Positions 3,565-40,400 of a stretch of DNA of 64,000 bases are shown piece after piece (the first letter of the stretch is position 1; every line of letters begins with the position of its first letter). The notes beneath the pieces were generated by a model. It saw only the letters and a program-made list of their open reading frames with translations, did not search any database and was not told the DNA's origin. The stretch is taken from IMG/VR virus record IMGVR_UViG_3300013132_000046, positions 1 through 64,000 of that record; one strand, 5' to 3'. A program made the position numbers and the translations under genes. Source of the stretch: a virus.

Positions 3565-5481
3565 TTAAGTTATTTCACAGGCACCAGCAGAACAAGCTAG
3601 TTCGTGTGATGCTTTAGTTGTATCTTCTCTTTCATATTCTGAAAGTAGATTCCAATTTACATGAGTAGGCATTAACGCCTCAAGTCTACCATACTCTTCT
3701 TCAGTAATAGACTCAAAGGGTGCTTGCTGGTAGATGTGTTCTACAGTTGGTAGGAATGATACACCAGATACCATGTGCCAGTGTTGCCATAACCAACCAC
3801 CTACATACAAGAAGTCATTATCTGTATAGTTTACAGTAACGCTAGGCTTGTGATCGCAGTAGAATAGTTGATAAGCCAACCACAATTGTAGGTGACCTAG
3901 TGCATTAATCTCATGTCGAGTAACACCAAAGTTTGCCTTAATTGGGAATGAAAATACTGTTGTGTTTTCTGGCCTCATAACACAAGGCTCATGTGGAATA
4001 CCAGCATTAGCCATAAACTTGGACATTGGTGAGTTCTTTTCCATTCTGATTCTACGGATATAGAACTTATCAAATCTTGGATGAAGACCACTGGCTGAAC
4101 CAGCAACACAGGATGTTGTGCCTTCTGGCTTTACACAAGTAATTGACTTGGATGGATTAATACCAAGATATTCAGCAAACTGTTCATTTGTTTTGCGAGC
4201 AACAAACTTAAGTGCTTCAAGAATCTTTTGTAGTTCTTCAATACCATGACCACCATTTGTAAGGTTGTTATCAAAGATACCAGTCATAGATACACCAAGC
4301 AATCTTTCTTCTTCGCAGTTTTCCTTGAAAGATGTTTGACCATTCTTTTCAAAGTAAGTAAAGTTAGTAAGCGCACTCTGGAGAGTACCTAGGATTGTAG
4401 CTAGTCTAATCTTTTCAATTAGCTGTGGGCCTTGGTCTTTTGGCTTAACTACAATAGTACTTAGGTTGCAGAACTGATCTGGTCTGAGGATAATCTCACT
4501 ACAGGGATTAGTACCAAACTTGTAATTAGGATTTCTACCAGCCTTTTCTGCAATCTTCTGCATTACTTCTCTATTACAAATACCACGCTCACCTGACCGT
4601 GAATTGTAAAGAGAAGCCCATTCATTCATAAATGTACCAAGACTTGGCTTGCTAGTAAATACAGCAGAGTTATTAGCTAATGATCTATGACCATTAGTTT
4701 CCCACCAGGGGCCACTTTTGGCATGGGCCATATCATAATCATTTAGATCTGATAGGCTAATCAGGGCTGAGCGTCTTACGCCACCACTGATAATGCTATC
4801 TGCAATCTGACATACAAGATCGTGAACTTCAATTGGTTTTAGTTTACGACCACTGGCACCGTAGAAGATGTTAGATGTAAACTTAATAAGACGGACAAAT
4901 GGTTCTGGACCACTGGCTCTGCCACCAAAAGTCTTAAGTCTTGTACCAGCTGCTCTTATTTTACTTACGTCAACTGTAAAATGCTTACCATTGAACAGTT
5001 CCATAATAAAACACTTATAGGCATTAGCCCAACCCTCTCTTGAGTCCTCAACTACAATAGAGTCTGATAACTTTGTAATTGTTTCTGGGATCTGGGGTAG
5101 GTTATTAATCTCTTCAGACTCAACTGAAAAGCCAACTACAGTGCCACAGGCTAGGGTGTACAGGATATTTGAGAATGATTCTACTGAATTAACAGCAACA
5201 TAGCAGCAGTTATAGGCTGCAACATCATCTTTATCAAGAGCTGGGCCAGCCGTCATAAGAGCGCGCATAGAACCGAATATTTCACGATTCTTCATTGCTT
5301 CTCTGGCCTTATTAAACTCTTCGTATTGTAGTTTAGGTAGCTTGGTGTTTAGATTTAGGCGGCTATCTAGGTAGTTAAAGTATCTATCTACAGCCTCGTC
5401 CCAGGTTTCTCTGCGGTTTAGGTCATCTACCCAACGACAATACTTATCAATTGCTACTAATTCTTCAAAAATCTTACTCAT
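3565..5481 (-). CDS. Adenosylcobalamin-dependent (class II) ribonucleotide reductase, monomeric
   Basis: 638 residues. It reduces ribonucleotides to deoxyribonucleotides using a cobalamin-generated thiyl radical. The active-site segment NPCSEI (Cys327, Glu329, Asn325) is followed by the family's FCNLS. A Cys pair at 92-93 (YNCCYVAVNS) should contain one of the redox cysteines, and the C-terminal ACSAGACEIT carries the shuttle pair (Cys630, Cys635) that is reduced by thioredoxin. The pattern fits the Lactobacillus-type monomeric reductase, which needs no second subunit. B12 must come from host or environment. Strong AAGGAG site. Together with ThyX, the kinase and the deaminase it supplies dNTPs. 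Confidence 0.93.
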   Translation of the reverse strand: MSKIFEELVAIDKYCRWVDDLNRRETWDEAVDRYFNYLDSRLNLNTKLPKLQYEEFNKAREAMKNREIFGSMRALMTAGPALDKDDVAAYNCCYVAVNSVESFSNILYTLACGTVVGFSVESEEINNLPQIPETITKLSDSIVVEDSREGWANAYKCFIMELFNGKHFTVDVSKIRAAGTRLKTFGGRASGPEPFVRLIKFTSNIFYGASGRKLKPIEVHDLVCQIADSIISGGVRRSALISLSDLNDYDMAHAKSGPWWETNGHRSLANNSAVFTSKPSLGTFMNEWASLYNSRSGERGICNREVMQKIAEKAGRNPNYKFGTNPCSEIILRPDQFCNLSTIVVKPKDQGPQLIEKIRLATILGTLQSALTNFTYFEKNGQTSFKENCEEERLLGVSMTGIFDNNLTNGGHGIEELQKILEALKFVARKTNEQFAEYLGINPSKSITCVKPEGTTSCVAGSASGLHPRFDKFYIRRIRMEKNSPMSKFMANAGIPHEPCVMRPENTTVFSFPIKANFGVTRHEINALGHLQLWLAYQLFYCDHKPSVTVNYTDNDFLYVGGWLWQHWHMVSGVSFLPTVEHIYQQAPFESITEEEYGRLEALMPTHVNWNLLSEYEREDTTKASHELACSAGACEIT

Positions 5482-5482
5482 A

Positions 5483-6268
5483 TTACTCCTTATTTAAATC
5501 CAAAATGTTTCTATCTCCAAGGTTATTTGGACACCAAAGGGTGATTTCCCTGGTTTCTTTGTTAAAATCACCATTTCTTAGGATTCTAACACACCTAGCT
5601 TGAGCAAGAGCAAAGTCACTAGGTGCCATATCAGGCACCTTATCTTCTGGTCTTTTTGCCCAGTCTTCTGCTAGGTACATATCCATGATAACCTTATCCC
5701 ATTCTTCTCTGGGATACTTGTCCAAAATCTTATTAGCTTTTACAGCCCCAACCTTCCATAGACCCCAGATGTTATCTGTAGAATCTCCGGTTAGCCATTG
5801 CTGGTAAAAGTATCTATCTGCGGCATCTTGTTCAACACAAACAGGTTCTTCTTCCTTATCAGGATTCCAGTGCCAACCAGGAATCTGTCGTAGATCCTTG
5901 TCTACTGTTACCCCAATAGCTTGACCAGAAGAAACCAGCATACCAATTAAGTCATCTGCTTCTAATCTATCTACACACCGTGATGTAATACCGGTATCAT
6001 AAATACACTCTAGAGCATAGCTCATTGAGTCGGGTGCTTTGAAATCATCTCTGTGTTCCTTGTAGGGCTTCCAGAAGACTCTACGATAGTTCTTGTTTCT
6101 CGGGCATGACATAGCAATATAAACTTTGTCCACACCCTTGGGAGTCCAATCGTTAATGTCTTTATTGATCCTTTCCGGCAATGCATCAATACCTTCTTGG
6201 TCGGCCCAAAACGCCGCACGATAAGCGATAATATCTCCATCTAAAATAGCCTCTGTTGGTTTATTCAT
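5483..6268 (-). CDS. 5'-3' exonuclease (FEN/T7 gp6-type)
   Basis: 261 residues with the acidic-cluster layout of flap-endonuclease-like 5'-3' exonucleases: ILDGDIIAY at the N-terminus, VDRLEADDLIG (about residue 98), VTVDKDLRQI, and TGDSTDNIWGL followed by VGAVKANKIL, which corresponds to the helix-hairpin-helix region. It probably degrades host DNA and removes RNA primers, as T7 gp6 does. It follows the polymerase cluster as gp6 does in T7. Its start overlaps the upstream kinase gene by 8 bases. Confidence 0.88.
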   Translation of the reverse strand: MNKPTEAILDGDIIAYRAAFWADQEGIDALPERINKDINDWTPKGVDKVYIAMSCPRNKNYRRVFWKPYKEHRDDFKAPDSMSYALECIYDTGITSRCVDRLEADDLIGMLVSSGQAIGVTVDKDLRQIPGWHWNPDKEEEPVCVEQDAADRYFYQQWLTGDSTDNIWGLWKVGAVKANKILDKYPREEWDKVIMDMYLAEDWAKRPEDKVPDMAPSDFALAQARCVRILRNGDFNKETREITLWCPNNLGDRNILDLNKE

Positions 6269-13276: not shown

Positions 13277-13350
13277 TAGAAGGGGCGGGAGTTGCACCCA
13301 CATATTCACGCTTATAAGGCATGCGCTCTAACTATTTCAGCCACCCTTCT
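13277..13350 (-). tRNA. tRNA-Ile (UAU)
   Basis: Acceptor AGAAGGG/CCCTTCT, D arm from GCTGAAATAGTTAGAGC, anticodon stem CATGC/GCGTG around loop CTTATAA (anticodon TAT), T arm GTGGG/CCCGC with loop TGCAACT, discriminator A. An unmodified UAU anticodon reads AUA, a codon that is rare in many hosts but frequent in A+T-rich phage genes. Slightly irregular D stem. Confidence 0.85.
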
Positions 13351-20279: not shown

Positions 20280-21212
20280 TCAAGCGTGTTGTAGTGCGTA
20301 TTCCATTACGCGGATCTTTGCCTTAGCACGATCCCCAAACAGAATATCATCGAACTTGTTATCAGTCTTGTTGTTGCCACGATAAATCTGGTCGTGATCC
20401 AACCAGTTAGTCACAGCATTTGCCGCAGTCCAGAGGCTTGCTCCGGTACTACGACTTTCTGAATCAAAGGTATTAGACCACTTGATCATGGTGCTAACAG
20501 CCTTTGAGTTGTCATCAGCTTGGTCAGCGTTGACTGGGTTTTCATGGATGTTACCGAACTGACTGATGTAAACATTAGTCCAGAAGGTCTGAACAAAGTC
20601 AGTAGTAACTTCCCGTTGTGCCATAAGGTTAGCTTGCTTAGCAAACTGCTCAGTACGAACACGGAAGAATTCAATACCATCAATCAGTGAGTTAATACGA
20701 GCCTGGATATTTCCAGTGTGCTTAATGGTTACCGACATCTTACTGCTACGAAGGGCAGCGTTAAGCGTGTTCTCACAGATGACACGCACGGTCGTAGGCA
20801 GAACACTCAGGGTATGCTTACCATTATGAGCATTGGTAAGTAGCGTGTAAGGACGAACTTCATCATCGCGGTTACCAACATTAAAGCTGTCGCCACGCAT
20901 GAGGAACCAAATACGCTCACCTTGGTAGAGATTACCTACGGTTTCAATGCGAACATTCTTACCATTAATAGCCTCTGCCATAGCAGCGACTTCAGAGTTT
21001 TGGATAACTCGGTACCCAGAACCAACAATACCAAGCACACGACCAGTATCCTGGCGCACGTTGGAGTAGTACTGTCCATCAGCCTTGATCTCAGCTTCAT
21101 GCTGATAAAGTACAGGCTGAGTAGTAACAGTCCAATCAAGGTTAGCATGAGCAATGGCCTCGGTCATGCTCATACCATCTACATTACGACCGGCAGTTGT
21201 GAAGATTGACAA
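20280..21212 (-). CDS. DUF932 (phage/plasmid TIGR03299-like) protein
   Basis: About 310 residues. Diagnostic stretches are MSMTEAIAHANLDWTV, VGSGYRVIQNSEV, RIWFLMRG, PYTLLTNAHNGKHTLSV and VRVICENTLNAAL, as in DUF932 proteins of phages, plasmids and CRISPR-adjacent loci. The function is not established. I start at a TTG because AAAGGA stands 6 bases before it; no ATG start is available until MSMTE. It is followed by a strong terminator, so it ends its transcription unit. Confidence 0.85.
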   Translation of the reverse strand: MSIFTTAGRNVDGMSMTEAIAHANLDWTVTTQPVLYQHEAEIKADGQYYSNVRQDTGRVLGIVGSGYRVIQNSEVAAMAEAINGKNVRIETVGNLYQGERIWFLMRGDSFNVGNRDDEVRPYTLLTNAHNGKHTLSVLPTTVRVICENTLNAALRSSKMSVTIKHTGNIQARINSLIDGIEFFRVRTEQFAKQANLMAQREVTTDFVQTFWTNVYISQFGNIHENPVNADQADDNSKAVSTMIKWSNTFDSESRSTGASLWTAANAVTNWLDHDQIYRGNNKTDNKFDDILFGDRAKAKIRVMEYALQHA

Positions 21213-23281: not shown

Positions 23282-23536
23282 TTAGAAGGGTAGACTGGTT
23301 GCCAAAGGCTCAGGAGCCGGTGGCAATTCAGCAGTCTTAGGCGAGGGTCGGCTAAGCTTACCCTTGAAGGCAGGAGCCCTCGGGTGAGCAGCCCCCGAGT
23401 TATCCCACATACTGATGGGATACTTAACTCCGTTGATTGTGACATAACCATTGAGTGCAGGCGATGCCGGGTTTACCGAATTAACCTTCCACACATCAAT
23501 ACGAATATTAGGTGCGTTTGCGTTTGTTTCTTGCAT
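23282..23536 (-). CDS. Unknown 84-residue protein with proline-rich tail ending SLPF
   Basis: A beta-rich half (IRIDVWKVNSVNPASPALNGYVTI, read in parts) is followed by a Pro/Ala-rich tail ending LATSLPF. The terminal Pro-Phe recalls the tips of SSB proteins, which dock on partner proteins, but there is no acidic tail. The start overlaps the upstream 38-residue gene by 29 bases; the terminator follows 6 bases after the stop. Confidence 0.62.
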   Translation of the reverse strand: MQETNANAPNIRIDVWKVNSVNPASPALNGYVTINGVKYPISMWDNSGAAHPRAPAFKGKLSRPSPKTAELPPAPEPLATSLPF

Positions 23537-23624
23537 TTGTAAAACTATTGTAAATATTATCTAGGACGTTTCCTAGGATTGATAAACCTAGACAAATTAC
23601 CAATCCCGATACAAGGTAAAACAT
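23508..23624 (-). CDS. 38-residue membrane protein
   Basis: A hydrophobic N-terminal helix (FYLVSGLVICLGLSILGNVL) and a basic C-terminus (ARNKRKRT) predict a single-span protein. GAGGAATA precedes the ATG, which shares a base with the upstream stop (TAATG). Convincing as a protein because of helix plus basic tail. Function unknown. Confidence 0.55.
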   Translation of the reverse strand: MFYLVSGLVICLGLSILGNVLDNIYNSFTNARNKRKRT

Positions 23625-23695
23625 TATTCCTCTAATTCATAGGAAGACATTAGGTCTTCCCATTCAGCTACTAGCTTCCAGTCTTCTTCTTCCAT
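23624..23695 (-). CDS. 23-residue acidic peptide
   Basis: MEEEDWKLVAEWEDLMSSYELEE, read in two parts as MEEEDWKLVAEW and EDLMSSYELEE; acidic, aromatic, helical. AGGGAG lies 9 bases before the ATG, and the stop overlaps the following start. It may be a leader peptide for the 38-residue gene. Part of it can fold as a 7-bp hairpin, so it could also belong to the structured RNA next to it. Confidence 0.4.
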   Translation of the reverse strand: MEEEDWKLVAEWEDLMSSYELEE

Positions 23696-24216
23696 GAAAT
23701 GAAACTCCCTGGTTAGGATTACGTTAACTTCTTAAAAGACATTCCACACATCTCTGCGAAGAATGCCATATTGGGGATTCCTAGTTCGACCCCAATCTCT
23801 ATCAGGGGATGCCTGATAGCTTTTGGCTAACTAATGTGCCAAGGCTAAGGAAAAGACAACCTAAGGGTTAGCCTAGGTTGTCCCATGTAGGTCTTTATAT
23901 CATCTCTTACCAGAGTAGATATAGACCTTAGACTATCTACTCTTGGTTATCCAATAACCGATGAAACGGTACATATTAGGGGTGTTTCATGTCCCTAACT
24001 GACTTCCGGCTTGAATTGAGTCCCCCATGTAGATCCGTCAACCCACACGGGACGCACTATGCTTAGGCTTCTATTTATACTCGCATAGTCGAGTAATCTT
24101 GAGGTATTGTTGGGGTATTGTCTCTCTATCCTTGGCCTTGCGGCTACATGCTAGGGGATAGTGTTCCCTATATTTACTGCCAACAGCAGCGAGTCCAACA
24201 CCATTACCTCTTGAAG

Positions 24217-24251
24217 AAAGATATCCCACAGGTTTCCCCGTGGGATACCAC
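24217..24251 (-). repeat. 35-bp exact repeat forming a GAAA hairpin, copy 1
   Basis: Identical to 24534-24568. On the minus strand it folds as an 11-bp stem (TATCCCACGGG with CCTGTGGGATA, one G-U) capped by a GAAA tetraloop. Confidence 0.9.
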
Positions 24252-24533
24252 TACCTATAACTGTTGTACAAGTCGGTAAGCCTTGCACATGAGTCTATAT
24301 GTTATTCAGATATACCCTATAGACAGGATATATCTAAAGAGGGTGTTTACAGTTCCCACAAACATGATCAAGTGTTTATAGGTAACACATAACTGCGTGT
24401 TTTCAATACACGCATCGAATGCTTTTCTATGAAGAAGGCTGTAGAGGCATTGGCCAGCCTACTAAAGGTTATCTTATACGCAAAGCGTAAAATAGGGAAC
24501 CACCCTCAAAGATGCCAATACGACATCTTTAGT

Positions 24534-24568
24534 AAAGATATCCCACAGGTTTCCCCGTGGGATACCAC
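24534..24568 (-). repeat. 35-bp exact repeat forming a GAAA hairpin, copy 2
   Basis: Same 35 bases as copy 1, 317 bp away. The identical loop sequence is a GNRA tetraloop, which usually docks into a receptor helix in large RNAs. Confidence 0.9.
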
Positions 24569-24872
24569 GCTAGACTTGGTTCTAGCACGGGTGGAATGTA
24601 CCACCTATATCTTCGGTCTTGGTTATACTGGCGGAAGCGCACCAGTAGAGATCTCTGCAGCCTTGATGGGCATTACCCCGGGCCGTGGCTTGGCTGGGAT
24701 TTTAACCGTGTTTTAAGCCACAGTCAACCACTAGTTTGTTGCCCTAGTTGGCTTAATCCAACTACCCGGGCAGGGCTGGCACCTAGAATGCCATTAGAAG
24801 CCACGGAACTGGTGACCCCTACCATGTGGGGGTTGACCAGTGCATGACCTCTAATGGAAGCCTAGGGGCTTG

Positions 24873-24917
24873 GTATAAAAGCAGGGGCACCCAAGCAAGA
24901 TTGCCTGGATGCCCCTG
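24873..24917 (-). terminator. Terminator after the 89-residue gene
   Basis: Long hairpin (CAGGGGCA/TGCCCCTG continued by a second helix with one mismatch) followed on the minus strand by CTTTTATA. It separates the early G+C-rich unit from the structured RNA region. Confidence 0.82.
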
Positions 24918-24935
24918 TTTCGTCTGTTTCCAGCG

Positions 24936-25205
24936 TCAGAGCTGGGGTTCGGACTGGGTTTCAATCAGTCCACGGGCTTCAGCCTCGGCCAAGATCCCCT
25001 GAATCTTCGATTCGGAGGTGACCTTACCGCGCTGGACCTGGATGACCAGATTCAGCAGCTCCTTGTCGCCCATCCGGGTGTAATCCACAATCTGCGGACG
25101 GGGGAGGGCCACAATGGCCTTCGACGTAAAGGTGATGTTGATGGGCATCACCAATCCTTTCTGGGAACCACTGATGATAGTGAACATTCCCTTTGGGTCC
25201 AACAT
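24936..25205 (-). CDS. Unknown 89-residue protein of the G+C-rich island
   Basis: Beta-rich N-terminal half (GMFTIISGSQKGLVM, INITFTSKAIVALP) and a helical C-terminal half (DKELLNLVIQVQRG, IQGILAEAEARGLIE). The first ATG is preceded by a perfect 14-base palindrome rather than a ribosome binding site; an ATG six codons later follows AAGGGA closely, so the start is uncertain. It lies downstream of the second RNA polymerase and a structured leader. No family recognised. Confidence 0.65.
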   Translation of the reverse strand: MLDPKGMFTIISGSQKGLVMPINITFTSKAIVALPRPQIVDYTRMGDKELLNLVIQVQRGKVTSESKIQGILAEAEARGLIETQSEPQL

Positions 25206-25212
25206 CAGCAGC

Positions 25213-25370
25213 CACTCGCGCGAGTGATCTTACTGATGTAAAATCGCAAGAGTGGCGCGACGCGAAGCGGAGTCGCCACAACGGGAGGGCAACCAGAGGC
25301 AAGCCCTGCGCTGAACGGAGCGTGTGGCTCCGTAAAGTCCGCTCTAGGGGCACTTATCCCTAGGGGATAA
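25213..25370 (-). promoter_or_regulatory. Structured leader between RNA polymerase 2 and the 89-residue gene
   Basis: Five hairpins in about 160 bases: 25213-25226 (6-bp G+C palindrome), 25252-25279 (6 bp), 25286-25307 (5 bp), 25316-25332 (6 bp) and 25354-25370 (7 bp, 3-base loop). No open frame. Probably a regulatory or processed untranslated RNA. Confidence 0.55.
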
Positions 25371-25409
25371 TATTATTAGTTAATTGAACCTATGAGTCAG
25401 GTTATTGGC

Positions 25410-27299
25410 TTAGCCCATGAAGTTGCGGGAAGCCATGAAGCGATGCTCGTTGATGGGCTTCCATCCCTCCTTCCAGATCTTGTGGTTGAGGTGGACCTGG
25501 TACTGAGCCAGGTTGTTTGCAAGGCGGGGTTCGGTCATGTACATCTTCTTGTACAGAACCTTCCACGCCATCTTGACGAAGCGCACACCCGCACAGGAAG
25601 TGCCGTGCGAGTCATGGATTGGTGAGTATGGCAACCCCTTGATTGCCATGAGCCGAGCGATGCCTGCCACATGGGCAGCATCTTCCGAGTGAATCACCAG
25701 CGGCGGGGCTGCGCTGGCCTGCTTGATCAGCTTACGCTTCATCAGCGTAACCTTGATCTTGCGGTCCCCAACCTCAAACTCCACGCGGTTGGGCTTTTCA
25801 TCCTTGTCCCAGTCGTACTGGAACACGAATGACTTGGCACCGTTGTGGTGATGCCAAGTGAAGACCTGGCCCTTGTCATGTGCCTTGCTATAGGCATCAC
25901 GAACCAAGCGGATAAACTCCCTCAACTTGGGGAACATCCGCAACAGTGCCGCATGGTACGCCTTGGAAACTTCCAAGGCATCCTCCCATGCCGTGTCCAG
26001 CCTGCCAACCCAAACATCAATCCAGTCTGGGTTGAATGCCTCTGGGTCCTTGGCCAACAATGCCTTGGCCTTCTTTGGGCAATAGTTATTGCCCTCTGAG
26101 ATGCGGTCCCAGTCATCTCCGTCCTTGAGGATGAGGCCCTTGGCCAAGCCGCCCGTTCCTGCGCCATAACCAAGGCGCATGACAAAGTACTTGGCCTCTT
26201 CAGGGTGGAAGAACTCCAACAAGGTTCCGCCATAGCCAGCCTGTGCTGACTTGGCAACCTCCTTGTACAATGACTTCTTCCTCTTGGTGCCACCAAGGTT
26301 GGTGTACCAAGCCAAGGTTGAGTCACCGCACAGCCCAGCAATGCGCTGATAGCCATCGCTGGTGCAGTCTTGCTGGAACACATAGGACGTTGCCCCCGTG
26401 TCTTCCAGCTCAGCCATTGCCACGGCCAATTCAAACCGGGCAACGATCTTGGTGACCTTGCAGCCGAACCAGTCAGCCGCACTCTGGAGATGGGCAATAG
26501 CCCCATCTCGTGGGTGGAAGGGCTGTTCCTGGGTAGGAACAAACCCAATCTTCTCCGACTCCGCATGGGTCATCGCCATGCGGACGCGGAAGATCAGTTC
26601 ACGGTAGTTACGGGGAGTAACCCCATCCTCCTTGGCAACCGCCCAGCAAGCTGCCAAGTTTGCCGCCTTGTCTTTACCAAGGCTGTAAGCCTTGGCGTAG
26701 CCCATCAGGCTACGAACCAACACACCGCCCATGTGGGCAAGCGTGTCGGGGAAGTAGAAGCGGCGACGCTTGAAGCAGTAGAACCTAAACACATCGGTCC
26801 CCTGCTTCTCGGCCTGTGCCACAGCCTTGAGAGCCGTGGCAAACTTCAGCCCTCCGCCTTCGGCACCCGGCATCTTCTGCCCAATGCTGTACAGGCGGGA
26901 AGAACCAAACGCCTTCAGGAATCGGAGTGCTTCCGGCCTGAAGGCGTACTGTACGCCCTGAAGGAAGTTCAGGGTGTCTGCGTCTGATGCAGACAATCCG
27001 GGCATTTCCTCCCAAACAGGAGGTTCTGCCCGAGTCAAGAGCGCAGTCTTGGGCACAACCCAGATGCGCTCTGAACGATGGCCGTCATCCGTGACCACTT
27101 GCTCACGGCTGATGGCGTACTCAGGCCGCAGCAGCAGCTGCTCCACGGCCTTCTTGGCGGCAGCTCCCAGCTCTGCCTCATTGCCAAGGAACGTGCATGC
27201 GTCCTTGGCGACGGCCCAGCACCGCTGGATGGTGAGCGGGTATGTTACCCGCTGAACCAGCGCGCTGAGCATTGCACTGACAATCTTCTTATTGGTCAT
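25410..27299 (-). CDS. Second, compact divergent single-subunit RNA polymerase
   Basis: 629 residues against 883 in T7. Motif A is QDCTSDGYQ (Asp311, Gly316, Gln318), motif B EAKYFVMRLGYG (Lys370, Tyr378-Gly379 at T7 spacing), motif C IHDSHGT (Asp563), and HSEDAAH (537-543) matches T7 HSQDGSH. The DxxGR motif is reduced to FKRRRFY (Arg180, Tyr182 kept, Asp and Gly lost), and the T7 Arg627 position is Pro366. The N-terminal promoter-binding domain is much shorter. Both catalytic Asp and the Lys/Tyr remain, so it may be active, presumably with different promoters. GAGGTAACC before the ATG. G+C-rich unlike the rest. A DNA-templated role is inference. Confidence 0.85.
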   Translation of the reverse strand: MTNKKIVSAMLSALVQRVTYPLTIQRCWAVAKDACTFLGNEAELGAAAKKAVEQLLLRPEYAISREQVVTDDGHRSERIWVVPKTALLTRAEPPVWEEMPGLSASDADTLNFLQGVQYAFRPEALRFLKAFGSSRLYSIGQKMPGAEGGGLKFATALKAVAQAEKQGTDVFRFYCFKRRRFYFPDTLAHMGGVLVRSLMGYAKAYSLGKDKAANLAACWAVAKEDGVTPRNYRELIFRVRMAMTHAESEKIGFVPTQEQPFHPRDGAIAHLQSAADWFGCKVTKIVARFELAVAMAELEDTGATSYVFQQDCTSDGYQRIAGLCGDSTLAWYTNLGGTKRKKSLYKEVAKSAQAGYGGTLLEFFHPEEAKYFVMRLGYGAGTGGLAKGLILKDGDDWDRISEGNNYCPKKAKALLAKDPEAFNPDWIDVWVGRLDTAWEDALEVSKAYHAALLRMFPKLREFIRLVRDAYSKAHDKGQVFTWHHHNGAKSFVFQYDWDKDEKPNRVEFEVGDRKIKVTLMKRKLIKQASAAPPLVIHSEDAAHVAGIARLMAIKGLPYSPIHDSHGTSCAGVRFVKMAWKVLYKKMYMTEPRLANNLAQYQVHLNHKIWKEGWKPINEHRFMASRNFMG

Positions 27300-27319: not shown

Positions 27320-27399
27320 GTGGTCATTTAAACTGTTGACCACTTGCAGTTACCCCAAAGGGGAAGCCCAAGGTAAGACACTTAAGCCTTACCTTGGGG
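27320..27399 (-). repeat. Three-hairpin intergenic element, copy 1 (before RNA polymerase 2)
   Basis: On the minus strand: a 10-bp hairpin (CCAAGGTAAG stem), a CCCC/GGGG hairpin and a 7-bp hairpin (GTGGTCA stem, loop with CAGTTTAAA). It lies 20 bases before the polymerase start. A second copy at 27761-27835 keeps the three stems with changed bases. Confidence 0.8.
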
Positions 27400-27404
27400 T
27401 AAAG

Positions 27405-27760: not shown

Positions 27761-27835
27761 GGCCATTTGAACTGTGGCCCTTACAGTTACCCTAAACAGG
27801 GAATCCCAAGGTAAGACACTTAAGCCTTACCCTGG
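27761..27835 (-). repeat. Three-hairpin intergenic element, copy 2
   Basis: Same order of hairpins as copy 1: 10-bp stem, CCCT/AGGG stem, GGCCA/TGGCC stem, with shared ACACTTAAG and CAGTT loops. It begins 27 bases before the start of the 109-residue gene. Confidence 0.8.
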
Positions 27836-27848
27836 AGTAGTACTGCGA

Positions 27849-28406: not shown

Positions 28407-31400
28407 TTACAGTAAAGCTTCTGGTGCCTGTATTGGCTGGTTAGCCTTTTGTAAATCTACGGATGTGGAAGTTTGTTGTGGTTGTGGTTGCTGTGGTTGT
28501 GGCTGTGGCAACTGTGGTTGCTGTGGTTGTGGCAATTGTGGTTGCTTAGGTTGTGGCAATTGTGGTTGCTGTAGTCTTTCCGAACTACGCTTCAAGTATT
28601 CTTCTAGATGTCTTTTTGGAATATTATTATATTGTGTTTCTCCTCGCAATACTGCTGGATACTCTGGGAACATTTCCCTAATTAGTGCATTTGTTGTATC
28701 TTCTACTGGTGTAGACATTGAATCTATAATTGCGGATATGTCTCCCTTGGCTCCTCTATACGAGCCTCCTGAGGTTGGTGAGCTAGTTCCCCATGCTTGT
28801 GCTACGGCTACTCTAATTGGTAGTGAGTAACCGTTGGCAATTAGCCAAGGCCCCAATGCTTTATAAGCGGCCCAGGTTTTTGCATCCCAAGTTTCTTGTG
28901 GTGATGCAAATGCTTCAACCATTTTGTATATATCTTTAAATTGTTGCATTAAGCCAGCTTCAGCAACAGAGCTAAGCATACCACCCTGTGATCTACCGGT
29001 TGCTGCTGCTATACTAGCATTAGCAATTAACCCTAGTATGTTATTACTAAATATTGGATTACGCATAACATACCTAGCAATTTCGCTGATATTGTCTCTT
29101 CTATTAAGTTTTTCTAGGATATCTTCATAACTTAATGTGCCTCTAGCCAAAGCAAGTACAAGGTTATAAGTAAAGTCTAGTAAACTTGCAGTAGCAAGCA
29201 TCATACCCATTTTTGGAAAACTAGCTGTACTACCTCTTCTAATTATTTGCTGAGCAACAAACAAAGAAGTATATGATTTATAGAATGTTAGTAGATCGGT
29301 AGCTAAGTTATCACTTCGTGGGGCATCTAGTGCTTTACGGACAACCATACCTCTTGTTGTGTTAAATTCTTGGAATTTAGCCATAGCTGTTTTAGCTAGA
29401 CTTAGTTCAGCTAGTAATTCATTCCTAGTTAAGAATGGTCTTGGTAGTGGTCCGGTTGATCTTGGTGAGGTTGAGTCTTTTAGTTCTAGTTCGACATCCA
29501 TCATATCTTGGAATAGAATAACACCTCTAAATGTATTCTTTTCTGTTCTGATATATCGCAATGCCTCTAGTCTCTTGCCCTCCAGTAAACCAGATTGAAT
29601 TATATATACAGCAACTTCTTGGTCAATAAAACCTAACTTGTTTTGCCGCAGTAATTCTTTAATTTGACCAACTGTGGTTGGTTTAGTTGCGGCAGCTCTA
29701 TAGGCATCTCGGAATCTATTAAGATGTCCCATTCTTTCTAGTTTAACTATTAATCTATTACCGGCAGCATCCATAGCAACTCTTACAGATTTCATTGCAC
29801 TGGAGTTGGAACGGGATCTATTTAGTTTCCATCTATCCCAGAATCCTAATTTTTCAATTAGATCTGAAGATGGATCCATAGATAAGAGATTGCTTGGTAG
29901 CATTGGTGAAGTAGTTTCTTCAACAAATGATAAAGTATTTTGAGCAAGTCTTCTAATCTTTCTTTGTCTGATTGGGAAGAATTGTCTTTTTGTTCTTCCA
30001 CTTGCGTCTGTTACTTTTCCTGGGAAACCAGAAGTATCTACTATAGCATTTGCCGCATTAACTATACCATCTTCTGCCATATCTCTTAGGAATCTAAAGG
30101 AAGATATAACACCAACAAACGGGTTGCTTTCTTGGAACATTTGCGACATTGTACTCATTACACCCTCTACCATATAAGTAGCTGTGTTGATATTCATACC
30201 GAACCGCATTAATACAAGTGTTTTAGCTCGGTTGTTCCAATCTGCTAGGCTTTGGCCCATGTCTGTGGTATCTCGTACTAGATTACCCTTTGTTTCTAGT
30301 AGCGCAAGTCTAAGTCTATTGATACCTTGACGCATTAAAGCGTTGTTATCAATCTTTAGGTTTCTTTCTCCACGTTGATCAAATAGGGTAATGTTTCTGC
30401 TATTGGAATTAACTGTTTGATCATTCTCAGCTTCAAACATATCTAAGATCTGAGATATATTGAAGTATGCATTTGGAATACCTGATAGCTGCTGAACCAT
30501 TTTACGTTCAATAGCATCATATGCAATCTTACCAGTACCCTTAGCCAATGTTGATAGATTTGTTTCAAACAACTTAAGCATGTTTGGGTTAGTTGATAAG
30601 AATACATCTCTGCTGGTTAGGAATACAGAATCCTGTTTAAATAGCGCAGAAGACTTTGTAACTCTATTTAGGAACTCAATGGTTAGTACATCAGATGGAC
30701 CCAAGATACCAGTCATTTCTCCAGTTAAACCATGTGGCATGTTTCTATCAGAAATACTAAAGTGTTTCCTTACGTCATCTCTTTGGAACTTAGTATTCCA
30801 TCTTTCGGCTGTTTTTTCATCTGTTGGAATTAGGAATGCTTTCTTAAAAGCTAGTACAACCATGTCCATATTTTGGGTTGTCATTCCACCAAATGTTTTT
30901 TCTAAGGTAACATCACCATCTCTAGTTTGCCACAGTATTTTATGAATTATTTCCTGTACATCTTTATGGATTCTAACCAAAGATTGTGTAGAAGCATAAT
31001 CTGCTACTGTTGTAATACCTGTTCTACCAATTGATTGTTTTGCAGCTGTTCTTACAGCCCAATTTATAATTGCTTCTCTACCACCATTAGCAATAGTATC
31101 CTTACCGGAAATAATATCAGCCACAACCTTGTTTAAAGATGCTTCATCTGCTACTAGCATTTCTTCTGGATTTAGTGGAATTATTCCAGAAGTATATCCT
31201 AATAGTGGAGAGAATGTCGCATACTTCCCATTAGTATCTAACATTGCTATATTCTTATTAACCAGTTCTTGTTTAATTATATCAAACGCATCTCTAGCTA
31301 GGTTACGATCCTGTAATAATGAAGTATCTCTTAGTCTAACCGGGAACACATCATTTTTACTAGTTTTTTCTAACATGCCTACTTGGGTTTGTAGCTCTAC

Positions 31401-34400
31401 GGTTTTATCTGTTAATAGTCTAAAAGCACCAGTAAGGCTTTCAACATGCTTCTGTTCTTTTGCTCCGGTTAGGATTGGTCTAATACCTAATAAATTCCTT
31501 ACTACATCCTGAATAATAGCATGTTGCATATTAAGGTTATTGGGATATTCTGAACTTAGGTCTGCTGATTTGATCATTACATTATAAACATAAGGATCAA
31601 TCAATAGTTTATCGTTTTGAATACCACTAACATCAGACTGTAAAGAACCCTTTGTTGTTACAGAAGCCTGGTCAATTAGTTCTGTTAGAATAGCTAATGG
31701 TGCAAATGGGCTATTATAGGTTAATGAAGTTGCATTCATAAACCCTTGTAATAGGTTGTTTTGCAGTATGGTTGAGATCATTAACTCGGAACCAACAAAG
31801 GGTATACTTCTAATAATACCAGCAGCTGTTCCTTCATCTGCTCTTTCTCCTCGTCTATCAATACCACGTTGAATAAGCCCAACTAAGAATGCTCTTCTAA
31901 ATCCATTATCAAGAAGATCTCGTTCTGTTAGTCTTGAACCCTTTGTTGTTGAGAAATCATCTAAATCAGCTAAAGTTCTTGCAACAAACCCAACACTAAT
32001 ATTCATAAATGTATTAATGTCTTTTTCTCTAATCTTTTGTTTAAGATCATTTATCTTTGAGTCTATAGCTGCAAGTGTTGCCATATTTGGAATTGGCTTG
32101 CTGCTTTCTATCTTATAGTTTTGTTCTTCTACTCTTAGTTCTGAAATTAAGATATTAAGATCAGCCATTTCTGTTGGTGTTAGCTGTCTATTGTTTTCTG
32201 TAGCAACAACACGTTTAAATGCATTGAGTTGAGCATCGGGATTACCAACATCAGCTCTAGTAGACATCCCTGTTCCAATAACAGCCATTACAACATCTTC
32301 AGCTTCTTTCATAAAGCTAGAGTATTCTGTGTTATCATTTAGTTTATTAAATGTAATAAGGACTCGTTGAGCCATTTTCTTAATAGCATAGAAAGCATTT
32401 TCCCAAAGTCTATAAGCCCTACCAACTGGTGCATACTTGTCTCTTAGTTTTGTAATAGCTTCCTTCGATCCCAGTACATTTCTTAGTAAGAAGAATGCAC
32501 CCATATGGGCAAAGAACTCATCAGTATTGCTAAGTGCATACTCTACTTCTTGTTCTAAGTTTTCGTATGGTTTGCCATTATTCATGGCTAATAGCATTTC
32601 TCTAATTACTGGTTTTGATCTTGTTGTATCAAATAGTCCAGTAACTTTACGCCACTCGGGTGAGTTTGTTTTTACATACTTTAGTCTAGCAATGTGAACT
32701 AATTCTTCTGCAAATCTAAATAGGATTTCATTTTCTGCTGTAACCTTCATTGCTGTTATGTTTTGACCTATTACATATCTACCATTTCTTTTGGCAGCAA
32801 ACATAATACCGTCTTTACCTTCGCCAGCAAACGATTCTATTGTTAGTTCTTCTACAATATCTGGGTTATGCTTTGCCAGGTTACCAATAAGCATAAGCTT
32901 CATATCCCGTGCTCTTGCTGATATTACACCACCAGAAACAAGACCATCAAGATAGTTTACAAACTTTTCTGCTGATTCTCGGTGTGCTGGGTTGCTAAAT
33001 GACATTATAAAGTCATCTGGATCAGTATATACAGCCGAAGAAGATGCATCAGAGTAGATCTCGTCAGCAATTTCTGGTTCTAGTTGTGGTCTGATAAAGT
33101 CTTCAACAGCCGCTCTGATATTAGACACAACTGCTGGTGTTAGTTCTTTACCGCTTGCTGTGGCCATAGCTCTAACAAACACAGCATCGCTTGTTAGGTT
33201 TCTTGGTTCAGCAACAACTCGTTCCATTGCTGCTCTAGTTACATAGTATTCTTTTGCATTATCATGTGGTTCGTTATCCATGACGTACATTAATGCAGAT
33301 ACAACATCATCAATTTGTTGCTTTTGGCTGGTCTTTAAACCTTCTGCATTAAAGTATCTATATACAGATCGCTCTGCTGCATCGTTTCCTGCTACTTTAT
33401 ACATCATGGCAGCAATCTTAATTAAAGCATTTGGAGACTTTACAGACTTTGGTAACTGTGTTTTGTTGTTATTTGCCCATACAATAAAATCACCTATTTG
33501 AGATGCTTTATCTTCAAATCCAAGTTGTTGAGCTTTTACAAGAACTTCAGTTAATACAGTTAAGAATGGAGCATCTGCAACAGAGATGTTAATCTTTTGC
33601 TGTTTAACTGTTTTAAAGGCTCTACCCGCTACTATATAAGTATCACTAGTTGGTATTGTTATTGTAATTGTAGCTGGATTATCTCCAGAAGACCGCAAGT
33701 AATACCCTAAATCAAGAACATCTTTGGACTTTCCATCAATGTTTACCCTTCTGTAATCTTTAAGCATAGCTGGTTTTACAGTACCTGGGTCTGTTTCATA
33801 CAAGAATGCAATACTTTCAGATAATTCATCTTCCATATCGCGCATTTTTTCAAACATCTGGGCTTCTTTTTCTTGAATTACTGAGTCAATCTCAGTTTTA
33901 AACCCATAGATTTCTTTGTTTGTTTGAATAGCAAGTTCAATTTCTGAGAATAACTTATAGTTTTCTAGGTTGTTTAGCATCTGAATCAAACCCTGTGGGG
34001 TATTAAGCCATAGTGTTGATGGGTTATCAACCTGTGATGTTATCTGGGCATACGGATCTGTTGGACCCTGTACGGTAAGCTTTTCTAGTTGCTCGTCTTC
34101 TCTAAATACTTTATTGTTTTTATCTCTTAGTGTTACTCTATTTTCTGAGTTGACAGCAAAGTAGAAATTCTTTAGCAATTCTTCTGCAATACTTTGCTTT
34201 TCAAGTAATGTAGCATTCCAGATTTTCTTATATAAAGCCGAGTCTGTTCTTGGATCAAGACTTTCAATAATAACAAACCCGTTAGAATCATATTTTACAT
34301 TTGGATCTGTTTCATATGGCGTTCCGACAATCATCTTAGTTGCTACTTGCTTAGCAGTTTCGGATGCACCTATTACTTGGTATAGGTGCATTACTTCTCT

Positions 34401-37400
34401 ACCAAAGGCAACTACAGGAACCTGGGTTGTAGATGGGATTCCGGCTCTACCCTGTCTTCCACGGACAATTACTCCAGGATCTAGGGTAATTCCAAACTCC
34501 ATGCTCATTAATCTTTCGATCTTACCCCTAGTACCTAGATATGTTAGTACTTGTAACCAACCAGGTTCTTCACCGAATGTTGCTTTGATATCGTTAATGG
34601 TGTCTAAACTTAGTGTTCTTTCCTCTAACGTTGCCATTAGATCGAGTGGAGAGAATCGCTTTAATCCACTAAGAGTAGCAGAGCTAATTCCAGCTGTTCT
34701 TAAGAACCCATCAATATATCTAATTCTAGCTTCTCTAACTAGTTCGTCTTTTTCTAGAACTTCATCAATTGATGTTTTGGACTGAGATGCTTTTTGTAGT
34801 GTGTCAATAGCTGGGTTTAGTGCTTTATTTCTTAGTTGCATAACTGCAAAGATTCTACCCCAATCTTTTGCTTCTAATGACTCATCTAATCCATGTAACT
34901 TAGCAAACTCTGTTAAGACATTCTGTAGTCTAATAGCATTTTGCTCTACTCTTTCCTTTTGGCCAAGAGCAATAGCTCCAATTACATCATCAGAACTTTG
35001 TGGAATCATTGGCATATTTTGAGGTTCATAAGGTGACTTATATCCTCTCAATGACTCTGGAACAAATCCGTTTGGATCAGCACTTAAGGCACCCTCAACT
35101 TCTGCTAGTTGCTGCAAAGCTTGGTTTTGTTTAATTCTGGCTGCGTGTTGTGCTGCTGCTAGTGCATAAATACCACGTTGTGTAAAGTCAATATCTGCAT
35201 ATGCTGGTCTTAAAGCACCATATCCATCAACAGTAGGATCTAGAATAATCTCTTCTCTGCTACTTACTGTATCAGAAGCAAGAGTTCTAAATCTAAGTCT
35301 AGCATATGCTGTTCCTGCTGCTTTTTTATTTCTATCATTTCTTTCTTTTGCGGTTATTTCAATTCCACCAACAGTATACTTACGAATCTTTGGTGCTTTT
35401 TCTAGATATCTTGATACTTCTGCTGCTTCTATTTCTTTTGCGGATCTTGCTTGTAGATCTAGGAAGTATTTTGTTCTATTTTCGTTTATTTCTGGTTTGT
35501 ATCCAGTAACAATAGTAGGTCTATAGAATTTGGCTAAGTTTAATAGCATTTGTCTAGCAAAGATTTGTTCAAAGTCTGCTCTTGCTGCCTGTTTTTCTTC
35601 AATCTTCCACATACCATAAGGATTGTAATCTCCACCTGGCTCCATAACCCTTGGTTGAGCATACTTTGAGCTTTCTGGACCAAGGCCATACCAACTAACC
35701 ATGTGGTTTCTACCGCTTGCTGTTTCTACTCCATATCTAAAGTAGATTTCTTTATTCAAGTATCTAGTATAATCTTCTTTATCGATATGTACACCCATTA
35801 CAAATCTATGAATGTCTGCCACATCTTCGTCTAGTACAAATGGAGTAGTAGCTCGTCTATTTAAAGCATAAATCATTAGATGATTTTGTGCTGCTTCTTC
35901 GCCGCCAGCAAGTGCAACATTCATTTCATAGATAAATGTGGCATATTCTTCTGGACTCATGCTGTCAATTGCTTTGCCTTCCCAAATACTAGAGGCTTTA
36001 TCAAGTCTTGCTTTCCACTTTGTTAGTAGTTCTGCTTCAATTTCTTGTTCAATTTCTTCAAGTTTTCTATTACTTGGATTTACAATTCCACGAACTCTTG
36101 CTACAGACTTGGCTGTTTCTTTTGCAGAAACAGAAATAAACTCTTGCATACTACCCAATCGTTCCATTCTTGATCGCGCTTCACCAAGAGCTTTGGAGCC
36201 ATTCAAAGTACTGCTATAGGTGCTTGAGTTTAGTCTTTGTGCGTTGCTTAGTAATATATTTCGTAAGTCTTGGATATTTTCTCTACTAAACCCAATAACT
36301 TCATCAATTAATCTAGAACTTCCAATTAACTGCGATCTTACAGACATACGAGCTAAGAATTCAATTTCATCTTCAGTTAGGTCAAGATTTGTTTCTTTTA
36401 CCTTTTCCTGTAAACCCTGTAGAATACCGGGATAGCCTGCTTGATAGAATGCCGGTGTTACAGCACCCTTTAGGAATTCTTTTAGTTGCGCTCTATTCTT
36501 TTCATCGCTTGGATCGCCCATCTTAGCTCTTAATGCTTTAGCTAACTCAGCATCCTCTGGTGTAATATTAAATTTAGATGGATTAGTAGCCATCTCATTT
36601 AGCATATTTGTACCAAAGTATGGGCTATTTTTATCACTGGTTCCAAGTAAGATGTCTATAAACATAAATCTTGGGTCACCTAAATCTTTACCAGCAACAA
36701 CAACCTTTTTACCAGCAAATGTAGCTGGAGCACCTGTTTCATCTGTTGCTTTTAGAACCTGTAACAGATCATCCATAACTTTAAAATTGCCGTCATTAAA
36801 GGCAATCAACATTGCTAGGATGTTATGCTTACCGTTATACTTGTAGTCTGATTTATTTGATGTATTCCAGGCAGCATCCCCATTGGTTCTAAGGATTTCC
36901 ATACCACGATCAAGTACATTTTCAAGCTCCTTAACACCATCTGGTGTCATTAAGCCATAACTAATCATATGTGCTAACTGGTCTATAGCACCGCCCATAA
37001 GTGCAGCAGCGGTTGGTCCACCAGCACTCATAAAGTCTTGCATATAAAATACTGGTTGGGTATCTTTAAAGAATCTTGGTGGAGCTTTCATTCCCATGTA
37101 AGTACAGTCATGGTTAAATGACATAAGTAATCTGGGAATCTCATATAAATGTTCTTCTACTAGCAACCTTCTTTCTGCTAGGTTTGGAATAGCAGCAAAT
37201 GGACTACGAACAGTAACATCAGGACTTATGTCTAGAACCTGTTGTCTAGCAAAGAAACTAATCGGATCTCTTGGTTCTTGAGTTAGTGGAGTCTCTAGCC
37301 AAGAGTATACTGAACTTAGGACAGCAGGATCACTAAGGTCCATATCAAGAATAGCATTTACTCTTTGCTGGAGTCTCCATCCCTCATAGGCTAACTCTTC

Positions 37401-40400
37401 ATTATCAAGAGAGTGTGGCTGTGCCATGTTGACTTTATCTTTACTTGGCATACCAAATATCTTTCTTCTACCCTTGCCACCCCTAGCTAGTAGTGTTCTG
37501 TCATCCATTTGCATAACAGACTCAACTTCATTTCCGCGCTGTAGCAGTACGTCTGTTACTGAAATGTCTGGTTTTTGATCCATCATTACTTGTGCAAAAG
37601 CAATACCAACCTCGTCTGCTGGCTTCCAGTCTAAAGACCCATTACCAAAGTCTTGTAATGCACTTAGACCTGGGACAAATGGTTTAAAGTAATCAAGAAT
37701 TACTCTTTCCCAGTATTGAGACTCTGATTCTGTTTCTTTTCTTGGCTCTGCTTTAACTCTATCAAGCATTGCTTTATTAAATCTATTCTTAACTTCTGAC
37801 TTAGAAATAAACTTAATAAATGAATCAAGTACAGCGTTTTCATATCTTTCTGCACTTCTAACAGAGTTGCTGAACAGGCCATCTTGTTTAAACTCTCCGA
37901 CCGGCATAGAGCCATCTAGATTGTCATTTATACTAACAACAGCTTCATTTCTATCGTTAATGTTGTAATTTAGTGATAAAACAAATCCATACTTGGTAAA
38001 TAACTCATCTAGTAGTGGGTTTATTGCTCTTTGGTTTTCTAAGGCAATGCGTCTAAGAGATCTATCAAAGTTTGTTTCTTCTGCGGCTCTTCCCTCAAGT
38101 CCATTAATAACCGCATTAATCTTAGCTTCGTTAGTTGTTGGATCACCTAATAAACTCTTGAGATACCAATTAATTAGTATATCATAAACAGCATTAGCAT
38201 CATAACCATAAGAACTTACCATATAGGTTTGTTCTACAATATCAGTTACTTTTGGTGTTATTTTAGTTATATCGCTTAGTGTATCAAGTGGAATTAACCC
38301 AGTAAACTCAATGCTGTTATTTAGCAGTAAATTACTCTTTGGTGGGGTAATTGAAATTGTAGTTACTTCATCTAAGTCAGAACCCTGTAGTGCTAGGCTG
38401 CTTATACCAGGATCAGACATATGTAAGAATAAAGCTAGTGTTGTTTCTGTATCATTTTCTGCATAAGCATCAAACTCAAAGAAGTCTCCAGTTTCTTGTC
38501 CCCTTCTCCACAGTTCTGTAATACCGCCTTCACCAAGTTTAATTTCTTCACCTGTTACAAGATTAACAGGATAGCCTGTGGTAAATTGAATTCTGGGTTT
38601 ACCTGTTGTTGGGTCTGGGTAACTAAGTACTGGTGTTTTTGTTGGTAGGTTATTTTTTGCAAGTTCTTTAAGTTTTTTACCTCTAACTCTAGACTTTTCA
38701 AACATATTAATGCCTGGAGCTTGGCTTGTAATATTAGCAAGCAAATCAAAGCTTCTTAAAGATACTCTAGCAAGTAAATCTGAGTCACTAGTAAAGAATC
38801 GTAGTTGTGGTAAATCAAAGCCATTACCATTGTGTGTAATTAGCTTATATCCCATATTCTGTAGTTCTTCGATTCTTTTTAATACGCTAGTAACTTGATC
38901 ATTAGTTAGTACTTGTCTTTCTTTTGCTTCTGTTGTTTTAACATCTACAAGATCAGTACCATTATTTACTAAGACTTCATTTGATCTAGTAAGTGCAGCT
39001 GGATTAGATGAATCATATGTAGCAATCTGAATGCTATAGATACCATCTACTTTTCTATCCGGGTCATTAACATCACCAAAGGTTTCAATATCAATTGTAA
39101 TTAACCTTGAGTTATCCTTGTCAAACCCATCTGCAAAGTCTGGCATTGTTTCAGGATCGCCACCATGAAGCTTTATTAGATTTCTAGCCATACTTAATTT
39201 ATCATCAATACCAACCTGAGATATTACTCTTCTTTGCATTGTTTTTAAGTATGCTTTTTGAAATGCTTCTGGATGGATATCCATAAGACGGTCACCTAAA
39301 ACCTGTCTCAATAGCTTTTCATTTATTGTTCCGTTAAAGTACTTAAAGCCGAATACACTACGAAGTCTTCTAACCGATCCCTCAATAACTCTAGCAGCCT
39401 CTCTGTGAGACTTTACCCGGTTTTTTGCGGGAATAGTACCTCTATTATTATCTGGGTGTACAGCAACCTGGTCGGCTGTTAAAGACGGGGCAAATGTTGG
39501 ATCGATTGCTTCTGGACTAGAAGCATCAACTACTCCACGGCCTACAGCAAATGACTTTAGGGTATTTAACGCTTCTTCTGTTAGTAAGGCTGGGTCTTCT
39601 GTAAAGAATGATCCATCATAACTAGATAGTAACTGGTTTCTCCAGATTTGACTTGCTTCTTTAACTTCTGCTTCATTCATTGGAGACAAGTCTTCAGTTT
39701 TACCGTCTTCTAGTTTTTCTCTCTTACCAATTACGGTTTTAACCGCAAACTCACCAAACATTTCTTCAACCTGAGAAACAACAACAGCTCCGCTTCTTTC
39801 TATTTCATTATTTAGATAAGACAATCTAAGATTCATACCCTCAGTAGCAATTGTCATTAACTTTCTTTGGTTAATAATCATTTGCTGGGATGTCATAGAT
39901 ACATCTCTAACATCCCTAACTAAAGATGTTAACCCAAGTTCCATCATCCTAGCTTGAACTTTATTAAGTTCTTTTTCAAGGTTAAATTTAAACTTGGTTA
40001 GGCTTTCTACTCTTTTGGTCATATCAATACCAGTAATATCTTTTAGACTGGCAATTGATAAACTGGTTAATGCTTTTTTAAGTTCGCTGTTTAGTTTTCC
40101 GAGTTGTTTTACAGCTTCTTTTCTATCCTTCTTTGCTTTATCTTTTTCATCCTTAAAGGACTTTTTCTTTGCTTTGTCTTTAGTTAAGATAATCTTAGAT
40201 TCTAGTGCAGCAATCTTACCCTCTAATAATCTGATATCTAATTCTTTTGCTTTTATTTGTTGTTGCTTTGCTTCAACCTTAGAATCTGCATCAATTACTG
40301 TAGATGTTTTACCAGACTCTTCAATTAATTGTGCAATGTAAATAAAGTTTTCAAGGATAAATTCCTTTTCTAGTAAACCCTGACTTTGGTTTAAAAGGCT

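Follow-up and report, generated by a model that had tools for sequence, protein, structure and literature searches.

The question raised by this locus is what the longest gene-free stretch of a phage genome encodes. The stretch lies in IMG/VR virus record IMGVR_UViG_3300013132_000046, of which we analyzed 64,000 of the 68,574 bases (referred to as the window). A sequence-only reading, made by a model, had taken it for a single ornate noncoding RNA of 1.1 kb from the minus strand, reminiscent of the large phage RNAs GOLLD and ROOL or possibly a new class. The analysis revealed a Pistol ribozyme followed by a 3' domain with covarying helices; the two are constantly found together, the part upstream of them consists of blocks that are exchanged between phages, and the locus lies behind the gene of a second RNA polymerase (RNAP2). 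It is very likely that the region encodes a structured RNA. With moderate confidence, we interpret it as a phage noncoding-RNA locus whose Pistol ribozyme would free a compact 173-nt 3' RNA that acts in trans, the upstream blocks being separate and swappable. Feature positions are given in Table 1.

Pistol ribozyme and the 3' domain behind it

A comparison with Rfam identified a Pistol ribozyme in the window (Table 1) and, with 43.8 bits, in its closest relative, G001 (IMGVR_UViG_3300021376_000051). Hundreds of Pistol ribozymes are known, frequently near phage-related genes (PMC4604425), and the cleavage site in the window was placed by alignment with this source. The P3 stem is intact, and cmscan marks one nonstandard pair only, located in P2. 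The pseudoknot that joins the P1 loop to the P2-P3 junction was read as CTATGC and GCATAG in the window, and its complement was kept in 109 of 116 Pistol pattern matches elsewhere. Between positions 24099 and 23774, 14 differences from G001 were listed, 6 of which make up three compensated pairs (pairing read by eye), namely, the outer pair of Pistol P1, 24094/24079, which is A-U in the window and C-G in G001, and the pairs 23819/23799 and 23792/23774 in two downstream hairpins. Two 12-nt complementarities between the Pistol and the 5' hairpin, which are mutually crossing and have eroded in G001, were treated as chance.

A pattern composed of Pistol P1 and ATAAATAG matched at least 119 stretches in viral_contigs (loci L112-L229), and several of these loci had two or more Pistol-like places (e.g., L157, L188, and L222). 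Among the 116 matches listed, 7 had no pseudoknot complement, 11 were inside an open reading frame (ORF) of at least 90 aa, and 23 were in gaps cut by the end of the locus. The idea that phage Pistols are general markers of large noncoding stretches was unsupported, as 46 of the 75 remaining matches were in gaps of at least 600 nt, against 0.63 expected from gap lengths. In the literature searched, as far as it was available to us, no assigned role for Pistol ribozymes was found.

The domain behind the Pistol contains, in this order, a stem P4, a hairpin P5, whose loop pairs downstream (PK1), a hairpin P6, whose loop also pairs downstream (PK2), ACATGGGAC, a hairpin, and TCTTTT; PK1 and PK2 are H-type pseudoknots. 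A covariance model of the four nested stems (R1), built from five relatives with the window excluded, retrieved the domain in the window with 69.4 bits (E value of 2.8e-19 over 916,442 bases). Alignment A6 comprises 14 distinct sequences fitted to R1; in it, G042 and G009 are misaligned over their 5' halves, and PK1 and most of P4 and P5 were left unscored for both. With both pseudoknots added, 95.7% of the 513 cells were paired, and 32 of the 40 pairs had changed on both sides. The covariation score was 0.702, compared with a shuffle mean of 0.219 (none of 500 shuffles reached 0.702) and with at most 0.113 for slid partners. Because the alignment had been fitted to the nested stems, two other results carry most weight. 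PK2, which is absent from R1, showed two-sided changes at 4 of its 5 pairs, with 92.9% and 85.7% of the cells paired in its two parts, and in a strand-swap test, for which the strands were selected by eye, true helices formed 261 of 271 pairs, whereas mixed helices formed 945 of 1,720. PK1 was invariant in the 12 rows scored.

Taken together, these data strongly support an RNA product of the minus strand, as the sequence-only reading had concluded, and provide the covariation among homologues that it had named as a check. The loop-to-distal pairings that it described are real in the 3' part, in the form of two pseudoknots, one of them covarying, and the Pistol pseudoknot adds a third. It is exceedingly improbable that the stretch is nothing more than intergenic sequence that folds well and yields no RNA product; the adjoining coding sequence is also unusually foldable, as such an explanation would have it, but the compensated changes over the 14 sequences and the orientation of the Pistol, which is the same throughout, argue against it. 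The domain is a strongly conserved double-pseudoknot RNA that appears to be previously unrecognized and may be a new class; no Pistol-linked pseudoknot RNA was recognized in the literature searched, which was seen in part and had most subscription papers outside it.

Distribution of the ribozyme and the 3' domain

A TerL search yielded 60 loci. We searched 46 of their contigs and three pattern-derived contigs for Pistol, leaving out 14 short contigs. Pistol was above the cut-off in 8 of the 46 TerL relatives (G001, G009, G019, G024, G033, G040, G042, and G046) and in 2 of the 3 pattern-derived contigs. The RNAP2 profile matched the same 8 relatives at near-full length, and by coordinates, the Pistol is downstream of this polymerase in all 8. 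G008 has a partial polymerase match (E value of 1.3e-18) near the contig end with little sequence beyond, and no Pistol was found there. The same order of polymerase and Pistol in G050, G056, G057, and G058 is not an independent test, since these contigs were obtained from RNA patterns.

The joint occurrence of both elements was also seen from the side of the 3' domain. A 3'-domain pattern free of Pistol letters matched 19 viral stretches, six of which are known members (G001, G019, G024, G040, G046, and G050). R1 accepted three of the other 13 (L242, L249, and L250), all with a Pistol above the cut-off directly upstream. There are thus 17 distinct sequences of the domain when these three are added to the 14 of A6 (with L212 counted as a repeat of L118), and 15 of them have a Pistol above the cut-off just upstream. 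The R1 match starts at the cleavage site in all members other than G042 and G009, in which an insert shifts the start to about 90 nt past the Pistol. The pattern matched 49 stretches in genome_contigs, which is estimated to be no more than chance (16 fixed letters, 257 billion bases) and gives no indication of cellular homologues. The best R1 match in cellular contigs (L296; 18.2 bits, E value of 0.0021) was not accepted, and a second match of 18.2 bits in L249 and short partial matches in G058 and G011 were not counted.

The main rival explanation is a role in cis at the end of a messenger, comparable to the RNase III sites that separate the early messengers of T7. The Pistol unit would then cut and close the 3' end of a transcript carrying the polymerase and a small ORF, and the 3' domain would be only a processing and termination signal. 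We regard this as possible, although not likely. The position behind the polymerase in the 8 TerL relatives is in agreement with such a role, as are the situation in G024 and G046, in which no more than about 60 nt separate the end of the small ORF from the Pistol, and the end of the unit in a hairpin followed by TCTTTT. However, a terminator-like hairpin (24917-24882) already separates the small ORF from the RNA in the window, the unit is also present in phages without the second polymerase (L118, L132, L157, L186, and L203), and two conserved pseudoknots exceed the needs of termination.

Exchangeable blocks and the proposed release of a small RNA

The window and G001 are 92 to 98% identical over most of their length and 74 to 86% identical in the tail and capsid regions. 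There are 12 stretches of at least 60 nt without a counterpart, two of which form the interior of the RNA (24094-24533 and 24609-24695). The blocks are arranged as A1-S-B1 (window), E-A2-S-B2 (G001), and E-A1-S-B2 (L242), in all cases before the same Pistol and a 3' domain that is 99% identical among the three. L242 combines block A1 of the window (87% identical) with blocks E (98%) and B2 (96%) of G001 around module S. L207 has a B2-like sequence before the Pistol and then a diverged 3' part that we read as the same plan, and L204 is missing the long upstream part. The unit of Pistol and 3' domain does not need the interior, because it almost directly follows the small ORF in G024 and G046. 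Since the 3' domain is constant, while the sequence before it ranges from a small gene to exchanged RNA blocks, this domain is likely the product under selection.

Block A2 of G001 is tRNA-like with two insertions, and ARAGORN was silent on the intact block; its tRNA calls in 207 trial sequences after in silico removal of parts are only suggestive, because the trials were so many. Block E of G001 (L003, 6457-6497), also read in L242, L102-L108, L249, and L250, is a recurring element with conserved AAGCAACC and TATAAATA. Although its two stems vary from copy to copy, pairing seems to be maintained, and the element resembles a small H-type pseudoknot whose third loop is A-rich; Rfam reported nothing for it in the loci scanned. 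On either side of the Pistol, G040 (L105) and G033 (L106) have several pieces of about 30 nt, CAC-CTGAGCA-A-TGTG-CCTAAAC-TGCTCA, that were read by eye as mini H-type pseudoknots, both stems of which show matching changes. At about 5000-5600, within an extensive gene-free region that follows the Pistol unit, G040 (L105) also has two hairpins resembling tRNA T-arms, GGGGTTCGAATCCCC, and ARAGORN reported no tRNA there.

This organization bears on whether the locus is one large, perhaps multimeric scaffold RNA of the GOLLD/ROOL kind, one half of which is conserved and the other variable, and whose Pistol is a structural relic. The roughly 1 kb of dense helices, a conserved 3' and a variable 5' part as in GOLLD (PMC12286853), the tRNA-like block in G001, and the weak P2 of the window Pistol are consistent with this. 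Nevertheless, we consider it very unlikely: no GOLLD or ROOL match was obtained up to an E value of 10, a large upstream part is missing in G024, G046, and L204, an active Pistol would cut such an RNA, and terminator-like hairpins occur within the stretch, which speaks against a single uniform RNA of 1.1 kb. Of the sequence-only reading, the RNA itself was supported, whereas its unity was not; it had overlooked the Pistol, the internal terminator-like hairpins, and the fact that a conserved 3' unit is distinct from an exchangeable interior. A rather doubtful variant of our interpretation is an RNA cassette array, in which structured RNAs, namely pseudoknots, tRNA-like blocks, and GAAA-capped hairpins, are swapped between near-identical phages as a counter-defense arsenal and the Pistol clips off a constant double-pseudoknot decoy of about 170 nt. 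RNA blocks exchanged between near-identical phages would represent phage adaptation carried by RNA and not by protein.

For the interpretation that we favor, we infer the transcription of the RNA, its cleavage in the cell, the stability of the freed product, and any action in trans, as follows. A transcript of the minus strand, perhaps started at the sigma70-like site 24727-24699 or arising by read-through, would run to the hairpin near 23850. The Pistol would fold and cut it at 24022/24021, giving a 173-nt RNA with a 5'-hydroxyl start, pseudoknots near the 5' end, and a 3' hairpin, with its end near 23850. The pseudoknots and the 3' hairpin would be a form that should resist decay, and the freed RNA would act in trans in the infected cell; the upstream blocks would be separate, swappable RNA pieces. 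Release of the small RNA is, in our view, somewhat more probable than its absence. Because this set of Pistols has a constant, strongly covarying partner downstream, a single short RNA would suffice to test which product a phage ribozyme releases.

Several observations weigh against this interpretation. P2 of the window Pistol is weak (2 of 4 standard pairs), and among the members tested, at least 3 of 4 pairs were standard in 9 of 16 and at most 2 of 4 in 7 of 16. The cleavage junction in the window has the two nucleotides expected from the alignment, and they are G-A, not G-U; the junction is usually GU, with a somewhat variable identity (PMC4604425). A slow or dead ribozyme is therefore possible. 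L132 and L186, the Pistols of which scored 25.7 bits, are below the cut-off, with an insertion after the core, and G033 has a Pistol and no R1 match. Most members outside the TerL group carry Pistol by construction, because they were found through a Pistol pattern. A first look at whole contigs with R1 reported 4 of 11 distant and near contigs and missed distant members that cmsearch found on fetched loci. Hairpin 23888-23850 was not flagged by the terminator scan, the limit of which is exceeded by its loop. Finally, folding energy does not set the region apart, because the RNAP2 gene folds about equally well; comparison does.

Table 1. Positions of the RNA elements and upstream genes in the window
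Feature	Position	Strand	Basis or remark
RNAP2, second single-subunit RNA polymerase, 629 aa	25410..27299	-	Pfam RNA_pol, 4.5e-13; profile A1 matches relatives; upstream neighbor of RNA
89-aa ORF, no known family	24936..25205	-	Upstream neighbor of RNA; similar small ORF there in relatives (by eye)
Terminator-like hairpin between 89-aa ORF and RNA	24882..24917	-	Terminator scan
5' part of RNA	24696..24879	-	Common to window and G001; only last 49 nt common to L242
Sigma70-like promoter match TTGACT-17-TAAAAT	24699..24727	-	Also read in G001 and L242
Exchangeable block A1	24609..24695	-	In window and L242, absent from G001
Module S, 75 nt, GAAA-capped hairpin	24534..24608	-	Common to window, G001, and L242
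Exchangeable block B1	24095..24533	-	Window only, apart from second S-hairpin copy
Second copy of S hairpin, terminator-like	24220..24249	-	Terminator scan and comparison
Pistol ribozyme	24017..24094	-	Rfam RF02679, 47 bits (cut-off, 34.5); expected cleavage between 24022 and 24021
Conserved 173-nt domain (P4, P5, P6, PK1, PK2, terminator-like hairpin)	23849..24021	-	Model R1; covariation
Two further hairpins, compensated changes in G001	23740..23848	-	Comparison of window and G001

Surroundings of the locus and comparison with known systems

With the ORF list taken as genes, the longest gap of the window spans 23537-24935 (1,399 nt), and a 23-codon ORF at 23624-23695 on the minus strand shortens it to about 1.24 kb. 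Look-alikes of similar size were seen by eye at the same place in G040, G042, and G009, and the ORF perhaps encodes a conserved microprotein. Between the ORFs 24936-25205 and 23282-23536, the minus strand contains only two frames of at least 40 aa (52 and 45 aa), and frames on the plus strand reach 96 aa; the larger frames were not taken as genes because the stretches that they overlap are replaced in the closest relative. The folding z score of the minus strand was -13.2 over 1,000 nt (24739-23740; 20 shuffles), and in a scan with 240-nt pieces, it was below -3 in 10 of the 12 minus-strand pieces starting at 23681-24761, compared with 26 of 199 elsewhere. The minus strand had the lower z score in 11 of these 12. 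Good folding was also obtained for coding controls, with minus-strand z scores of -6.8 in the RNAP2 gene (26000-26500; -7.9 in one RNAP2 piece) and -5.5 in ORF 20280-20800. Helix density as proof of an RNA product was thus ruled out, as coding pieces, including RNAP2, have z scores of about -5 to -7.

The sequence-only reading was accurate on the absence of genes, the density of helices, the preference for the minus strand, and the GNRA loops, the GAAA-capped hairpin being present twice (24222-24247 and 24539-24564). Its limits of 23740 and 24870 were nearly right; the recognizable RNA unit spans 24879 to 23849 on the minus strand, and the two hairpins with compensated changes extend to about 23774. 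The sigma70-like match within the unit may be due to chance, as judged from a promoter scan that found 14 such sites where 8.7 were expected. No 10-mer was common to three intergenic pieces of the window that could indicate a promoter for a phage polymerase.

Among the proteins of the window, a head-tail adaptor, TerL, DNA polymerase, primase-helicase, ribonucleotide reductase, Thy1, and two single-subunit RNA polymerases (811 and 629 aa) mark the virus as a T7-like podovirus. Its TerL is at most 39.3% identical to phage records (best 20 of 2,571 matches), the window DNA had no match in 50,697 known-phage records, and RNAP2 had no match to known phages. The RNAP2 gene is very divergent (17 to 96% identity among nine), sits in a G+C-rich island (0.52 to 0.57, compared with 0.35 to 0.45 around it), and has an unusually foldable coding strand. 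Further observations were a direct repeat of 41 nt at 27361-27401 and 27799-27839, 93% alike and with hairpin potential, in the gaps before two minus-strand genes, and an ORF of 4,172 aa at 28407-40925 on the minus strand.

At curated cut-offs, cmscan reported only Pistols in the window and in 12 plus 3 relatives, as well as tRNAs in the window. The Rfam scan for GOLLD, ROOL, and introns that the sequence-only reading had put forward returned no such family and Pistol instead. No match to GOLLD or ROOL up to an E value of 10 was obtained in the region or its G001 counterpart, so that membership in either family was not supported, and a new class is a possibility for the conserved 3' part. A group II intron fragment was rejected (15.6 bits; cut-off, 35), and the other matches at the relaxed threshold (E value of up to 10) were far below the family cut-offs.

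The locus shares with Pistol RF02679 a score above the cut-off, P1, P3, the pseudoknot, and the vicinity of phage genes (PMC4604425), and differs by the weak P2, the G-A junction, and the constant 173-nt structured RNA behind it, of which we found no description. Like this locus, GOLLD is phage encoded, large, and ornate, with a conserved 3' region, a variable 5' region, and a linker that can hold tRNAs (PMC12286853). In contrast, the locus here has no family match, contains a ribozyme, and has a core unit of only about 250 nt; GOLLD is often near tRNA islands, whereas the nearest tRNA gene of the window (13277-13350) is more than 10 kb away. Another mark of GOLLD is a homo-multimeric cage. 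The type III antitoxin RNA ToxI is also an H-type pseudoknot RNA, and phages can carry pseudo-ToxI (PMC5086642), a likeness of shape only; type III antitoxin RNAs consist of tandem pseudoknot repeats ahead of an endoribonuclease toxin gene, whereas no such array was found in 23550-25420, and no toxin family of Pfam or PHROGs matched the neighboring ORFs searched. In small RNAs cut from messenger 3' ends (PMC9438474), a stable, terminator-bearing 3' fragment is likewise freed from a longer transcript; a protein nuclease releases them, whereas here a ribozyme would. In the HDV-like theta ribozymes of gut phages (PMC10879173), a phage ribozyme also lies beside a functional RNA whose ends it makes, but these ribozymes process tRNAs, whereas the Pistol described here precedes an unclassified pseudoknot RNA.
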